Origin: a virus | Strand: one strand, 5' to 3' | Length of the DNA stretch: 32,662 nucleotides | IMG/VR virus record: IMGVR_UViG_3300042311_000399 | Location: 1-32,662 of that record | In this document: positions 19,466 to 28,027 of the stretch, piece after piece | Numbering within the stretch: position 1 is the first letter of the stretch | How the letters are laid out: each line of letters begins with the position of its first letter | The notes under the pieces: generated by a model | What the model was told of the DNA's origin: nothing | Database searches by the model: none | The model's input: only the letters and a program-made list of their open reading frames with translations | Translations under genes and position numbers: made by a program

Positions 19466-19776
19466 TTCCCAAGCCCCTTTTCCCAAAGTTCAATGGCGCG
19501 GAGGGCGACCACTATTGGATCGCGGTCATCGCGGTAGCCATGCCGAAACTCTAGTTCCTCCGGCTCGCCAGCGAACAGCAGCGCCACAGCCTCTCTCGCG
19601 CACAGCACCTTGCGATCCACGGGCGGCTGCTCGTAGCGTTCGATCATGTCGCAGAGGGCGGTGAATGCGTCATAGTTTTCATAGTAAATGCGCAGAGTGT
19701 CAACGGCGTCGCACCATCCGCTCCGCTTCGCAGCTTCGAGTAGCACCCAGTCTGGTGGTGTTTGCTTGTCGGTCAT
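19462..19776 (-). CDS. Array gene 15: paralogue A of duplicated pair
   Basis: This 104-aa protein begins MTDKQTPPDWVLLEAAKRSG and includes ALCDMIERYEQPPVDRK and LCAREAVALLF. It is clearly homologous to array gene 10 (20645-20938), sharing the start, the CDMIERYEQPPVDRK core and an RAIELW end with a short insertion. The pair is part of a duplicated gene cassette. Helical composition and the ARE segment suggest a small all-alpha protein. No known function. Confidence 0.78.
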   Translation of the reverse strand: MTDKQTPPDWVLLEAAKRSGWCDAVDTLRIYYENYDAFTALCDMIERYEQPPVDRKVLCAREAVALLFAGEPEELEFRHGYRDDRDPIVVALRAIELWEKGLGK

Positions 19777-20057
19777 TTCGTCTCTCCTAATGCGGCGCGG
19801 GCCGCTGCAACATACTCAGGGTGAGCTTCCTGCCACCTTTCATTGAAGCGTGAATACTCGACCATGCCGCGCAACGCCTCGCGCAACCGCTTGACCGCAG
19901 TCGCTTGGGTTTCGAGTGCGTCGAGTAACGGTCTGGCGATCTCCACCGCGCTACAGTGCTGCCTGCGGTATTCGGCGATCTCAGCCGCTTGGGCTTCGAC
20001 CTTGGCGACATATTCGCAGTCGTAACCGAAGGTGGGGCAGGTTCCACAGTCACTCAC
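19773..20057 (-). CDS. Array gene 14: paralogue B, coiled-coil protein
   Basis: This 94-aa protein begins with GTG (MSDCGTCPTFGYDCEYVA) and has four cysteines in the first 14 residues followed by a helix AKVEAQAAEIAEYRRQ. The end REALRGMVEYSRFNERWQ and HPEYVAAARAALGETK is shared with array gene 8. GTG at 20057 is supported by a 4-nt overlap with the stop of array gene 13. The cysteine-rich start could bind zinc, an inference. Confidence 0.75.
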   Translation of the reverse strand: MSDCGTCPTFGYDCEYVAKVEAQAAEIAEYRRQHCSAVEIARPLLDALETQATAVKRLREALRGMVEYSRFNERWQEAHPEYVAAARAALGETK

Positions 20058-20179
20058 CAATCGTCTCCCTCATTAATCATCTCTGGCATATGCTCACACA
20101 TCCATGCGCGGCGGCGGCACTCGGCCATGTAGTCGGCCTGCCTCTCGGCCCAGCGGACGAGGTAGCTGTCGGGGATCAT
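19791..20179 (-). repeat. Duplicated cassette copy 1 (array genes 13-14)
   Basis: This segment and 21183-21535 share long near-identical stretches at DNA level, for example the words around 19793/21184 (GCGGCGCGGGCCGCTGCAAC) and 19853/21243, and around 20085/21441. The matching gene order is C then B. Near-identity in DNA implies a fairly recent duplication or gene conversion inside the array. Confidence 0.75.
20054..20179 (-). CDS. Array gene 13: 41-aa paralogue C
   Basis: This 41-aa protein begins MIPDSYLVRWAERQADYMAE and ends MPEMINEGDDW. It is nearly the same as array gene 7 (MIPAAHLDRWAETQ...), also 41 aa, and both are followed by a B-type paralogue. Conservation of both copies at protein level argues that this short frame is a real gene. 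Function unknown. Confidence 0.75.
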   Translation of the reverse strand: MIPDSYLVRWAERQADYMAECRRRAWMCEHMPEMINEGDDW

Positions 20180-20358
20180 GCGCGCGGCTCCGCGAGTGCG
20201 GCGCGGGCGTATTGCCTAGCCACCGCGCAAGCATCTGGATCAATCGCCAGCGCGGCAAACAAACCCCGCAGCCGCTCGTTCTCGGCAGTCAGGGCTTCGA
20301 TGCGGTCGGCTTGCTCCTTGCAGGTGGCGCAAAAATTAGTGCGAATGTTGTCGGTCAT
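20176..20358 (-). CDS. Array gene 12: coiled-coil protein with CxxC
   Basis: This 60-aa protein begins MTDNIRTNFCATCKEQADRI and holds a CATC motif followed by a heptad helix RIEALTAENERLRGLFAAL, then YARAALAEPRA. The same IEALTAENERLR helix occurs in the adjacent array gene 11, which suggests internal duplication. CxxC plus coiled coil could make a small zinc-stabilised dimer. No known function. Confidence 0.72.
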   Translation of the reverse strand: MTDNIRTNFCATCKEQADRIEALTAENERLRGLFAALAIDPDACAVARQYARAALAEPRA

Positions 20359-20648
20359 TTCCCGTCTCCCTTCATTGCGCGGATGGTGGTGGCGATGCGG
20401 GAGCTATCCGTTTCGGTTAGATGCTCTGTCAGGCCACGTACCGACTTGGCCCATTCTAGTGCGCGTTCATGGAAACAATCCGCCACCTTCGCCGCTTCCT
20501 CCAACACCTCATCCCTCACCGCTGCGAGGTGGGTGCGCAGCCGCTCGTTCTCGGCAGTCAGTGCTTCGATGCGTCCGCACAGTTCTATAACTTGTGTGTG
20601 CCTTGCGGCCTTCTTGCTGAGAACCCGCTTCACCAGATCGTCGGTCAT
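20355..20648 (-). CDS. Array gene 11: Ea22-like coiled-coil protein
   Basis: This 97-aa protein begins MTDDLVKRVLSKKAARHTQV and includes RIEALTAENERLRTHLAAVR and EEAAKVADCFHERALEWAKS. The LVKR head, EALTAENERLR helix and AAKVAD segment are typical of phage Ea22-like proteins. ATG at 20648 overlaps the previous stop by 4 nt and is preferred to a longer start inside gene 10. Function unknown. Confidence 0.75.
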   Translation of the reverse strand: MTDDLVKRVLSKKAARHTQVIELCGRIEALTAENERLRTHLAAVRDEVLEEAAKVADCFHERALEWAKSVRGLTEHLTETDSSRIATTIRAMKGDGK

Positions 20649-20938
20649 TTCCCAAACCTTCCTACCCAGAGTTCGATGGCGCGGATGCAAGCGTTCTCCG
20701 CCAAGTCACCCTGATCGTATCCATAATCTTTAGCTGCCTCTCTCGCACACAGCAGCTTGCGATCCACGGGTGGCTGCTCGTAGCGTTCGATCATGTCGCA
20801 GAGTGCGCGGTAGCTGCCGTAGTCAGGGTGTTCACTGATGTAGCAACGAAGCAGGTGGTCAGCGGGCCATTTATCCCAGCCAGCTTTGTCGGCGGCTAGT
20901 TTAAGCACCCAGTCGGGCGGTGTTTGCTTGTCGGTCAT
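20645..20938 (-). CDS. Array gene 10: paralogue A' of duplicated pair
   Basis: This 97-aa protein begins MTDKQTPPDWVLKLAADKAG and shares ALCDMIERYEQPPVDRK, LCAREAA and IRAIELW with array gene 15. The N-terminal 12 residues are identical to that paralogue, while the middle has diverged, so selection seems to retain the helix core. No family function is known. Confidence 0.78.
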   Translation of the reverse strand: MTDKQTPPDWVLKLAADKAGWDKWPADHLLRCYISEHPDYGSYRALCDMIERYEQPPVDRKLLCAREAAKDYGYDQGDLAENACIRAIELWVGRFGK

Positions 20939-20960
20939 TCCGTCTCTCCCAGTGCGGCGC
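20929..20960 (-). repeat. Recurrent gene-junction element (C-term tail, SD, next start)
   Basis: A common sequence is seen at several junctions in the array: GCGGC.C...GGGAGAGACGGAATGACCGA read on the minus strand. It encodes the ALGETE tail of one protein, serves as ribosome binding site and starts the next as ATGACCGA. Other copies are at about 18808-18832, 19769-19800 and 21161-21190. Confidence 0.7.
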
Positions 20961-21168
20961 GGATGGCTAGACCTGTCGGGGTGAAGTCGGCTTTATATCC
21001 AATGCGGCACCGCCCACTCATACCCGGTATGCTGTGGTAAATCGGTTCGTATGTCGCCAAACCCGCTCGCACCAACGCGAAGAAGTCAGCCTTCTTGCCG
21101 CGCTCGGAGAGCAAGCAATCGCGCTCCGCCTTCGTCAGCTTAAGTGTAATCGCTTCAATGTCAGTCAT
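20935..21168 (-). CDS. Array gene 9: hypothetical protein
   Basis: This 77-aa protein begins MTDIEAITLKLTKAERDCLL and has a basic helix SERGKKADFFALVRAGLATYE, then a beta-like GMSGRCRIGYKADFTPTG and the tail AIRAALGETE. It has no paralogue in the other copy of the cassette and looks like an insertion between B' and A'. The ITLKLTKAERDCL start resembles helix-turn-helix-like phage proteins but evidence is weak. Confidence 0.7.
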   Translation of the reverse strand: MTDIEAITLKLTKAERDCLLSERGKKADFFALVRAGLATYEPIYHSIPGMSGRCRIGYKADFTPTGLAIRAALGETE

Positions 21169-21413
21169 TCTGTCTCTCTCAGTGCGGCGCGGGCCGCTGC
21201 AACATACTCAGGGTGGTCGTCCTGCCACCTTTCGCAGGACATCGAATACTCGACCATGCCGCGCAACGCCTCGCGCAGCCGCTTGATCTCAGCCGCTTGG
21301 GCTTCGATGGTGTCGGCGGCTTCGCCCGGTAGCGCCAGCATACCGTTGTCGTGGGCAGTGAAAATGCCGTGCTCTTCTGTGTAGCGCAGCCGCTTGATCA
21401 GTTCCTCACTCAC
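21165..21413 (-). CDS. Array gene 8: paralogue B', Ea22-like
   Basis: This 82-aa protein begins MSEELIKRLRYTEEHGIFTA and has GEAADTIEAQAAEIKRLREA, then the shared end GMVEYSMSCERWQ..HPEYVAAARAALRETE. Compared with array gene 14 the C-terminal half is conserved and the N-terminal half is different, so the two are mosaics joined at the AAEI helix. Start overlaps the previous stop by 4 nt. Confidence 0.77.
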   Translation of the reverse strand: MSEELIKRLRYTEEHGIFTAHDNGMLALPGEAADTIEAQAAEIKRLREALRGMVEYSMSCERWQDDHPEYVAAARAALRETE

Positions 21414-21535
21414 CAGTCCTCTCCCTCATCAATCAGTTCTGGCATATGCTCACGCATCCATGCGCGGCGGCGTATCTCGGCCATGTAGTCGGCCTGCGTC
21501 TCGGCCCAGCGGTCGAGGTGTGCGGCGGGGATCAT
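21183..21535 (-). repeat. Duplicated cassette copy 2 (array genes 7-8)
   Basis: Second copy of the C-B cassette described for 19791-20179. Its N-terminal part of gene B' differs from B, so the copies have been reshuffled at the AAEI helix after duplication. Confidence 0.75.
21410..21535 (-). CDS. Array gene 7: 41-aa paralogue C'
   Basis: This 41-aa protein begins MIPAAHLDRWAETQADYMAE and ends MREHMPELIDEGEDW. It is the twin of array gene 13 in length and sequence. The Asp/Glu-rich end and one amphipathic helix are the only visible features. The 4-nt overlaps on both sides support the start. Confidence 0.76.
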   Translation of the reverse strand: MIPAAHLDRWAETQADYMAEIRRRAWMREHMPELIDEGEDW

Positions 21536-21699
21536 GTTTTCACCTTCACGTTGGTGTTGTTGGACAAGAGTATCGTCAGGATGAACCACCACGGCGACCA
21601 GTCATGCCAGCCGACGAGGTAGGCTGTGCCGCCCCACAGAAAGGCGAGCCACGAAACGGTCGCCACAAGCGCGACGGCGATGAGGGTGTTCTTGCTCAT
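21532..21699 (-). CDS. Array gene 6: two-TM membrane protein
   Basis: This 55-aa protein begins MSKNTLIAVALVATVSWLAF and contains two hydrophobic helices (about 5-29 and 37-47) with Trp-rich turns (WHDWSPWWF). It ends in a basic VKVKT. It is one of three likely membrane proteins next to each other in the array. Start at 21699 overlaps the previous stop by 4 nt. Role unknown. Confidence 0.7.
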   Translation of the reverse strand: MSKNTLIAVALVATVSWLAFLWGGTAYLVGWHDWSPWWFILTILLSNNTNVKVKT

Positions 21700-26149: not shown

Positions 26150-26731
26150 ATGACCATCGAAGAACTTGCCTACTTAAAATGTTCGAATAAAATTCGCACT
26201 GCGCTAATCAACACGGTCGGGCGTGCGCCGCCGATTGATGTGATTGAGCGTAAGCTGAAAGAATTTGAGCCTAAGCGGGTTCGCTGGAACGTTGGGGAGC
26301 CAAAGGACAGCGATGCTGTCGGTTATATGCCGGAATACCTGCAAGACAGGCTGGAGCGCATCAGCAAGCCTGAAAAGCCCAAAAAACCGCGCAAGATATA
26401 TATCCCCAAGCCAGCAAGCCTTGAGCCGCGTGAATATAAGCCAACGCTGCTGTCGGAAAAGCTTGCCCAAGAGGTTTGCAAGCGCATGGGCCTTGACGTT
26501 GCAACGTTCTACAGCGCCACCAGAGTCAAGCCTTACGTCCATGCTAGGGGTATCGTTTGTCAGGTGCTGCGTGAGCGCAATCCAAGCGTCTACAGCCACA
26601 GCAGGCTTGGTGCGTGCATTGCGCGTGAGGATCACAGCACTGTTGCACACCTGCTGAAGCAGTTTCAATCTTACTGCCGCCATCCAAACGTGTGGAGGGT
26701 TTATCAAGAGGTCAGCCAGCTTGAATTATAA
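26150..26731 (+). CDS. DnaA domain IV-like DNA-binding protein 1
   Basis: This 193-aa protein has a basic N-terminal part with KPEKPKKPRKIYIPKP linker (about residues 72-90) and a C-terminal helix-turn-helix resembling DnaA domain IV. HARGIVCQVLRERNPS matches the R-x-I...L segment, and REDHSTVAHLLKQF (159-165 for REDHSTV) matches the RDHSTV DnaA signature. There is no Walker A or AAA+ part. It probably binds DnaA-box-like sites. A second such gene follows after a hairpin. Confidence 0.75.
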   Translation: MTIEELAYLKCSNKIRTALINTVGRAPPIDVIERKLKEFEPKRVRWNVGEPKDSDAVGYMPEYLQDRLERISKPEKPKKPRKIYIPKPASLEPREYKPTLLSEKLAQEVCKRMGLDVATFYSATRVKPYVHARGIVCQVLRERNPSVYSHSRLGACIAREDHSTVAHLLKQFQSYCRHPNVWRVYQEVSQLEL

Positions 26732-26819: not shown

Positions 26820-27290
26820 ATGATTGTTCGTGTACACTGTATACCGCCTATCCGCAATGTTCCGCCGCAGCCAACGGTTGTGGAGCGGATACCGCTGCGC
26901 CGATCTCTTACGCCAGAGCAAAGGGACGAAATTGCTCGCTTGGCCGCGCTGATTCCAGATCGGATTAACGACAAGCAGCATATCAAGCAGAAAGCGGCTG
27001 ATGAAGCGCAAGAGTTGATCGCCAGTGTTTTGGCACGATGCCAGATCGGGCGGCGCAAGTTCTTTCAGCAGCGCAGGCGGGCGCAAAACGTTGCTGTCGC
27101 TGGCGGTATTGCCGTGCTGCTGCGGGAGCGTGATGAAAAGCTTTATTCCTACCCGTTTCTTGCGTCCTTGCTTAATCGCAAAGACCACACCACGATGATG
27201 AATGCCGTGAGGCGTTGGCCTGAGTTGGCAGCACAGTTCCCAGACATTGCAGCGGTGATCGAAGCTGTGCGTAAGGAGTGGAAGCGATGA
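26820..27290 (+). CDS. DnaA domain IV-like DNA-binding protein 2
   Basis: This 156-aa protein begins MIVRVHCIPPIRNVPPQPTV and ends in a DnaA domain IV-like unit: GGIAVLLRERDEKLYSYPFL then LLNRKDHTTMMNAVRRW (RKDHTTM at 120-126). A helical charged part (ERIPLRRSLTPEQRDEIARL) precedes it. The two DnaA-like proteins differ in the N-terminal halves but share the terminal domain. ATG 26820 has RBS GAAGAGGAGGCACTG. Confidence 0.75.
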   Translation: MIVRVHCIPPIRNVPPQPTVVERIPLRRSLTPEQRDEIARLAALIPDRINDKQHIKQKAADEAQELIASVLARCQIGRRKFFQQRRRAQNVAVAGGIAVLLRERDEKLYSYPFLASLLNRKDHTTMMNAVRRWPELAAQFPDIAAVIEAVRKEWKR

Positions 27291-28027
27291 GCGGTTTGCC
27301 TTGGTTTCGCGTCTATCATCGCATGATTGACGATGAGCGCTTGCGCCTTTTGGCTTTCGAGGATCGTTGGCATTTTGTGGCAGTGCTTTGCCTTAAGGCT
27401 GATGGTTTGCTTGATGACGATCATGATGATCTGTGGGAGCGCAGGCTTGCATTAAAGCTTGGCATCCAGCTTCGGGAGCTTGATGAAATCAATCGGAGGC
27501 TGATGAATGTCGGCCTGATTGATGCTGAATGGCAACCGATAAAGTGGGACGAATTACAGCAACGATCAGATCACAGTCGAGATCGGGTTAGAAAGTTTCG
27601 GGACAAGCAAAAATCGTTGCAAAACAGCGGTGAAACAGATGTAACCGTTACAGTAACGGAAATGAAACGGCCTAGAGTAGATAAGATAAGACAAGATAAG
27701 AAAGAACCTAAAGGTTCTAGTGCATCTGGCGATGCACCTGCATTCACAATCGAAGATTTTGTTGAAGCATGGAATGAGACCGCCGAAGCGTGCGGTCTGG
27801 CAAAGATTCGGAAGTTGACCGAATCGCGGAAGCGGGCTTTTAATGTGCGCCGCCGAGAGTATCCTGAGATCAGTGATTGGCAGGCTGCGTTTAGCTGTTT
27901 GCGCGACAACAAGTGGATGCACGGCGACAATCATCAGGGCTGGAGGGCCGATCCTGATTTCTTCCTGACCGCATCGAAGTTCACAAAGCTAGTGGAGGGG
28001 CAATATGGCAAAGCTGATCGAAACTAA
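27287..28027 (+). CDS. Lambda O / DnaD-like replication initiator
   Basis: This 246-aa protein begins MSGLPWFRVYHRMIDDERLR, with LLAFEDRWHFVAVLCLKADG forming a winged-helix-like N-terminal unit as in phage replisome organisers. A charged linker at residues about 120-160 (TVTEMKRPRVDKIRQ) is encoded by a stretch full of palindromes. A C-terminal helix domain with RKRAFNVRRREYPEIS and GWRADPDFFL completes it. ATG 27287 overlaps the upstream stop. It would load the host helicase at the phage origin. Confidence 0.78.
   Translation: MSGLPWFRVYHRMIDDERLRLLAFEDRWHFVAVLCLKADGLLDDDHDDLWERRLALKLGIQLRELDEINRRLMNVGLIDAEWQPIKWDELQQRSDHSRDRVRKFRDKQKSLQNSGETDVTVTVTEMKRPRVDKIRQDKKEPKGSSASGDAPAFTIEDFVEAWNETAEACGLAKIRKLTESRKRAFNVRRREYPEISDWQAAFSCLRDNKWMHGDNHQGWRADPDFFLTASKFTKLVEGQYGKADRN
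27645..27737. other. Candidate lambda-type replication origin within the initiator gene
   Basis: In 93 bp I see CCGTTAC-A-GTAACGG (27645-27659, perfect odd palindrome), three GATAAG units (27680, 27685, 27695) in a purine-rich AT-rich run, AGAACC-TAAA-GGTTCT (27703-27718) and GTGCATC-TGGC-GATGCAC (27720-27737). In lambda the origin iterons lie inside gene O in the linker region, and this position matches. No experiment supports it. Confidence 0.5.

Follow-up and report, generated by a model that had tools for sequence, protein, structure and literature searches.

A probable phage replication origin with predicted non-coding-strand minihairpins inside an initiator gene

We describe a cluster of symmetric DNA elements in the linker-coding part of a phage initiator gene which, judged from sequence comparison, is likely to be a replication origin composed of initiator-binding boxes, an opening tract and minihairpins that would form on the bottom (non-coding) strand. 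We lean, with less assurance, towards a broader reading in which unrelated initiator families, lambda O included, would share an unrecognised cis-acting minihairpin (loop cGNNAg/cGNAg or TTTA, always on one and the same strand, at the distal end of the tract) that is selected as a DNA structure and is probably read or tolerated by a common host replication factor.

Results

The DNA analysed, referred to here as the window, is the whole of a 32,662-base virus record, a linear fragment with about 55% GC. Its O/DnaD-like initiator gene (27287-28027, + strand) was recognised from PHROG matches of its product (DnaD-like helicase loader, 2.9e-20; O-like replication initiator, 3.1e-19), from predicted domain limits and from a weak fold match of its N-domain to plasmid initiator N-domains (best PDB neighbours 4pt7, 4pql, 4pta and 5kbj, E ~1); a Pfam search of the same product returned no match, Phage_rep_O included. 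An AlphaFold model (20 relatives) predicts helices within residues 5-113, a disordered linker at residues 115-148 and a helical C-domain at residues 155-243, which would divide the gene into a folded N-domain (about 27287-27625), a linker (27629-27730) and a C-domain (about 27749-28015). Residues 115-148 correspond to codons 27629-27730 and in the model coincide with the cluster of palindromes and hairpins, so that the cluster appears to sit where protein constraint is lowest; the preliminary description, which had assigned it to the linker-coding part, agrees with the model.

Two consecutive genes upstream of the initiator (26150-26731 and 26820-27290) both have a DnaA C-terminal helix-turn-helix domain, the domain that binds DnaA boxes (5.1e-8, above the cut-off, and 1.8e-5, below it), and a similar-looking gene lies upstream of the initiator in the related locus L002 (2415-2927). 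DnaA boxes (TTWTNCACA) had no match anywhere in the 32,662 bases. The GC skew of the window had no extremum at 27.7 kb, a test that is empty for a linear fragment.

The cluster begins with two overlapping palindromes, TGTAACCGTTACA (27640-27652) and CCGTTACAGTAACGG (27645-27659), which together (27640-27659, no strand assigned) contain three copies of the word GTAAC/GTTAC, each inverted relative to the one before, and are predicted to be initiator-binding boxes. Beyond them lies a purine-rich tract with a 6-bp period (27674-27702, + strand), probably an opening tract, which holds three GATAAG units (starting at 27680, 27685 and 27695, the first two having one base in common). The stretch 27664-27702 is 64% A+T and 77% purine within the ~55% GC window, an asymmetry that is moderate rather than extreme, and thus has the composition of the A+T-rich, strand-asymmetric tract beside the boxes of a lambda-type origin. 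Hairpin 1 (27703-27718; AGAACC-TAAA-GGTTCT on the coding strand) and hairpin 2 (27720-27737; GTGCATC-TGGC-GATGCAC on the coding strand) follow, both assigned to the minus strand, on which their loops read TTTA and C-GCCA-G, the latter of the cGNNAg class. The preliminary description had listed CCGTTACAGTAACGG, the GATAAG units and both hairpins, and all are present; the overlapping palindrome TGTAACCGTTACA was absent from it.

With a tight repeat defined as an arm of ≥6 and a loop of 1 or 3-5, four tight inverted repeats (27640-27652, 27645-27659, 27703-27718 and 27720-27737) fall inside 98 nt, an arrangement seen in 0/200 trinucleotide-Markov sequences of equal length (three repeats: 32/200). 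No other 93-bp stretch of the record is as dense in inverted-repeat bases, in agreement with the earlier impression by eye, yet 7/60 shuffled windows reached that simple density somewhere. Two looser inverted repeats in the same gene (27777-27798 and 27805-27825), likewise not listed in the preliminary description, are missing from the closest relative, L123, and were taken as chance rather than as parts of the cluster. An Rfam search of the region gave no family above its cut-off, the best match being RNAI (minus strand 27774-27861; 20.3 bits, cut-off 47), which lies over these non-conserved repeats and is probably due to chance.

For comparison, we gathered 322 distinct linkers by criteria that took no account of hairpins: 77 through alignment of N-domains to the window family, 74 from DUF1376-type initiators (seed L094, Pfam DUF1376 match), 76 from Rep_O-type initiators (seed L018, Pfam Phage_rep_O; homologous to lambda-type O proteins) and 95 chosen by the repeat GATACAGATACAGATACAGA alone (the GATACA set). 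For three of the four sets the N-domain alignments include genes with hairpin 1, a possible bias from which the GATACA set is free.

The relatives share a three-part anatomy. Directly 3' of the N-domain lie palindromic boxes that use one word per phage and different words among phages (GTAAC/GTTAC in the window; GTGAC/GTCAC, GAAACG/CGTTTC and ACGCGTGAC in relatives; TGGGG/CCCCA in Rep_O types). These boxes were found in 66 of 70 window-family linkers vs. 12 expected when codons were redrawn for the same protein, and the comparison of relatives that the preliminary description had called for thus finds linker DNA kept beyond protein need. The second part is a tract with a 6-bp period, of GATACA, GATAAG or GAGACA type in the window family and of A/C-rich type in DUF1376 initiators, and the third consists of one or two hairpins at the 3' end of the tract. 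Since the place of GATAAG is taken in relatives by a simple 6-bp repeat of varying sequence (among them GATACA and GAGACA), that stretch is better read as a spacer or opening tract, and the upstream palindromes as the likely initiator sites; GATAAG by itself is common, with 15 copies on both strands of the window. The earlier interpretation, a lambda-like origin with GATAAG iterons, is in this way partly supported: the sequence comparisons speak well for a lambda-like origin in the initiator gene, and the units do not appear to be iterons.

The nearest N-domain relative, L002, is 76-78% identical to the window in the N-domain, has an HNH endonuclease (Pfam HNH, 1.3e-11) inserted before the linker and has a different C-domain; despite the endonuclease domain and the other C-domain, it still has TGTAACCGTTACAGT, GATAAG units and AGAACCTAAAGGTTCTAG. 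In all, endonuclease-type domains stand in frame between N-domain and origin linker in five loci, with HNH in four (L002, 2924-3955; L131, 2684-3625; L172, 3001-3924; L212, 2263-3255) and T5orf172 in L036 (4033-5028), and these insertions possibly reflect homing into replication genes. Low-complexity linkers (DTDTDTD, EPEPEPE, TNNQEP) recur in phage initiator genes, at viral contig loci with GATACA/GAACCA-type repeats, and the 6-bp repeats beneath them seem to be origin DNA and not protein features. A whole-gene DNA search of known phages gave no match, and a 57-nt query of repeat plus hairpin gave no hairpin match and several matches of its repeat half in initiator or replisome-organizer genes.

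We found a motif hairpin (C-TNNC-G, C-TNC-G or C-TNNA-G on the coding strand) in 105 of the 322 distinct linkers vs. ~2 expected under synonymous recoding (32/77 vs. 0.73 in the N-domain set, 22/74 vs. 0.5 in the DUF1376 set, 33/76 vs. 0.68 in the Rep_O set and 18/95 vs. 0.27 in the GATACAGATACAGATACAGA-repeat set). Kinship inflates these counts; when one linker was taken per sequence cluster, the motif hairpin was present in 56/201 vs. 1.03 expected. Counting distinct hairpins (stem ≥6, loop 3-4) in linkers and in the rest of the same loci, C-TNNC-G and C-TNC-G together made up 53/210 in linkers vs. 14/1155 elsewhere (Fisher p ~3e-33, a guide only as the sequences are related), and C-TNNA-G accounted for 21 more in linkers and 10 outside. 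Loops turned the other way, whose coding strand reads C-GNNA-G or C-GNA-G, numbered 0 in linkers vs. the 53 in motif orientation, and 6 outside. About two thirds of the linkers are without a perfect motif hairpin of stem ≥6; the element is widespread, not obligatory.

By sequence and by folding, hairpin 2 of the window is closed by C:G and has the 5'G/3'A loop on its bottom strand; hairpin 1 keeps the closing pair, but with TTTA as its bottom loop it does not belong to the strict cGNNAg class, and its two strands have equal energy in the folding model. The exact 16-mer of hairpin 1 occurs in at least 119 viral contig stretches, and at 80 loci, most of them initiator-like, it reads EPKGS in frame in a long ORF; the exact 18-mer of hairpin 2 occurs in 23 stretches, 18 of which are initiator linkers. 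Across linkers, the peptide encoded at the hairpin varies widely (EPKGS, EAKAS, TPKGV, ETNVS, VNTNVL), so the protein is not the conserved thing at this place, and as part of the reading that we consider likely, the hairpins would be selected as DNA, independently of the protein.

Covariation in the stems points the same way. In 20 distinct sequences aligned with hairpin 2 as the anchor and hairpin 1 unselected, 30 cells had changes in both partners (10.5 on average after shuffling), pairing was kept in 89.2% of cells (75.7 shuffled, 29-45 with partners slid) and the covariation score was 0.325 (0.107 shuffled, 0.066-0.142 slid). Because hairpin 2 had been picked for paired stems (bar one row), it is helix 1 that bears independent weight, with two-sided changes in 5/6 pairs and 77.5% of cells paired. 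Another type of hairpin, seen in L124 (3086), L127 (3071), L129, L201 and L213, has a loop of 11 nt (TC-N-C(TNC)G-N'-TC) in which N and N' covary (G/C, A/T, C/G). It encodes an SSLRSE-like motif and may be a form of the same element that contains an internal loop.

Seen from the non-coding strand, the TNNC and TNC loops become cGNNAg and cGNAg, an exceptionally stable class of DNA hairpin loop. Where the stem of a motif hairpin has a single mismatch, the coding strand shows A.C in 5 cases, G.T in 0 and another type in 9 (small numbers), and an A.C there is a G.T wobble on the other strand. The hairpin of lambda (NC_001416; 39162-39189, counted from L334), GTCAGAG-A-ATTC-TGGC-GAAT-C-CTCTGAC, lies directly 3' of the AT-rich tract; it was missed by the search for stems of ≥5, its inner stem having 4 bp below the mismatch, and was read by eye and confirmed by folding. 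It contains exactly one mismatch, A.C, and so folds better on the bottom strand (-8.5 vs. -6.4 kcal/mol by folding). Together, the mismatch bias and the lambda folding hint at a bottom-strand hairpin. The published ori-lambda spans 39034-39160 (PMC3349717), which leaves the hairpin just outside.

Among other known phages, the lambda core recurs in Proteus phage Pm34, where the loop is TAAC, and in Klebsiella phage 2b, where another N-domain and other repeats precede it. Hairpins are also present in P22 gene 18 (CCCCC-TAAA-GGGGG), in Pseudomonas phage YMC11/07/P54 (AGTCCTAC-tgac-GTAGGACT) and, in weak form, in a Bacillus phage (CAAAC-taaa-GTTTG). Lambda, Pm34, 2b, P22 and the Pseudomonas phage agree in both the loop class and its location. 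The motif hairpin was absent from DUF1376-type phages of Vibrio, Acinetobacter, Moraxella and Thalassomonas and from one Streptococcus phage. Lambda and P22 gene 18, like the window, have inverted-repeat boxes, an A+T- or purine-rich tract and then an inverted repeat in the linker-coding region, the same order of parts, and the preliminary description had likened the location of the cluster to that of the lambda origin in gene O; the loop TGGC of lambda is that of hairpin 2, and the loop TAAA of P22 is that of hairpin 1. On the modelled linker and the base composition, the window has two of the features that define lambda-type origins, the linker position and the opening tract. It differs from lambda in its N-domain, which has no Pfam Phage_rep_O match despite the O-like PHROG match, in having two overlapping palindromes on one word instead of four separate 18-bp iterons, and in having two hairpins.

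Discussion

In the mechanism we favour, the initiator N-domain would bind the palindromic boxes (27640-27659), the adjacent purine tract would open, and one or two inverted repeats at its far end would form minihairpins on the non-coding strand, with cGNNAg/cGNAg or TTTA loops. Such hairpins would most likely form on supercoiled or opened DNA and resist SSB, a resistance known from N4 only. Followed from its 5' end, the bottom strand has first the hairpin, then the open tract and then the boxes. DnaB travels 5' to 3', and a helicase on the open tract would therefore have the hairpin immediately on its 5' side and travel leftward. The hairpin, directly 5' of the part of the bottom strand that has opened, could then act as a boundary or as a landing mark at which the C-domain and the host loader might place DnaB or the first primer might be made; if SSB does not melt it, it could mark the loading place, hold the bubble open or offer a primer start. 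We put forward a role in helicase loading or priming tentatively, as something that is perhaps so.

The same origin could instead use its hairpins as start signals for primase (DnaG), with the coding-strand loop 5'-CTG/CTA-3' templating the first primer. Bacterial primases start at CTG/CTA-type trinucleotides, and of 64 distinct motif hairpins, 56 have a purine at position 2 of the tetraloop, which gives CTA or CTG. The triloops, however, use all four bases (TGC 4, TAC 2, TCC 2, TTC 2), for which reason we demote this reading to an unlikely one; in addition, the constant final C of the loop and the closing G are not needed for CTR, and the purine bias may stem from the linker codons (Asn, Asp, Ser, Gly).

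We regard it as very improbable that the hairpins act in the initiator mRNA (in translation, stability or attenuation) and not in DNA. They do lie in a transcribed gene and in a single orientation relative to it, but single stem mismatches on the coding strand are A.C five times and never G.T (G.U in RNA), albeit in small numbers, no T-run follows the hairpins, no Rfam family matches, the loops obey the rule known for stable DNA loops when the template strand is read, and in lambda the hairpin stands at the end of the origin tract. Slightly less probable still is that short identical hairpins are mainly recombination hot spots for swaps of initiator domains: the same C-domain and hairpins do follow different N-domains (L045/L055; L029/L048; lambda/Klebsiella 2b), and L002 has the N-domain and hairpin 1 of the window without its C-domain, but this would leave the covarying stems, the loop rule and the strand polarity unexplained, and differing stems would not recombine by homology. 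A chance cluster of palindromes in a codon-biased linker has next to no likelihood, for although shuffled windows can match its simple density, the four tight repeats, the synonymous-recoding nulls and the covariation all oppose it and the relatives refute it.

Our favoured reading, an origin with bottom-strand minihairpins, has likenesses in two other systems. The early promoters of N4, used by its virion RNA polymerase, have like the motif hairpins a C:G closing pair and a 5'G...3'A loop on one strand; they differ in being promoters rather than origins and in having a 3-nt loop that is read by a phage RNA polymerase, and we claim no homology. In N4 promoters, the closing pair and the 5'G/3'A loop are required for extrusion, for which physiological supercoiling suffices; E. 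coli SSB melts the opposite-strand hairpin but spares the one with the 5'G/3'A loop (PMC4496689). In repABC plasmids, oriV lies inside repC, at a central A+T-rich part, as was shown with silent mutations (PMC3155836); as in the window, the origin is within the initiator coding sequence. RepC and RepA_N are plasmid initiators from families other than that of the window initiator, and the fold of the window N-domain is weakly like that of RepA_N N-domains.

A literature search, which did not extend to the 1979-1981 lambdoid-origin papers, turned up nothing on the loop rule, on the strand it applies to or on its spread over unrelated initiators; the inverted repeat of lambda as such may well have been reported in those early papers. 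If our reading is right, it would add a defined part to lambda-type origins, just outside the textbook boundary of ori-lambda, and would explain odd linkers of phage initiators (EPKGS, SSLRSE, VNTNVL) as protein shadows of hairpins. It would also offer a rule for placing origins in phages known from sequence only (palindromic boxes, 6-bp tract, C-TN(N)C-G hairpin) and would tie phage origins to DNA hairpins of the N4 type that survive SSB.

Elsewhere in the window, the minus strand at 19773-21592 carries several short, paralogue-like ORFs with common IEALTAENERLR and REALRGMVEYS...EYVAAARAAL motifs, which run opposite to the early genes on the right.
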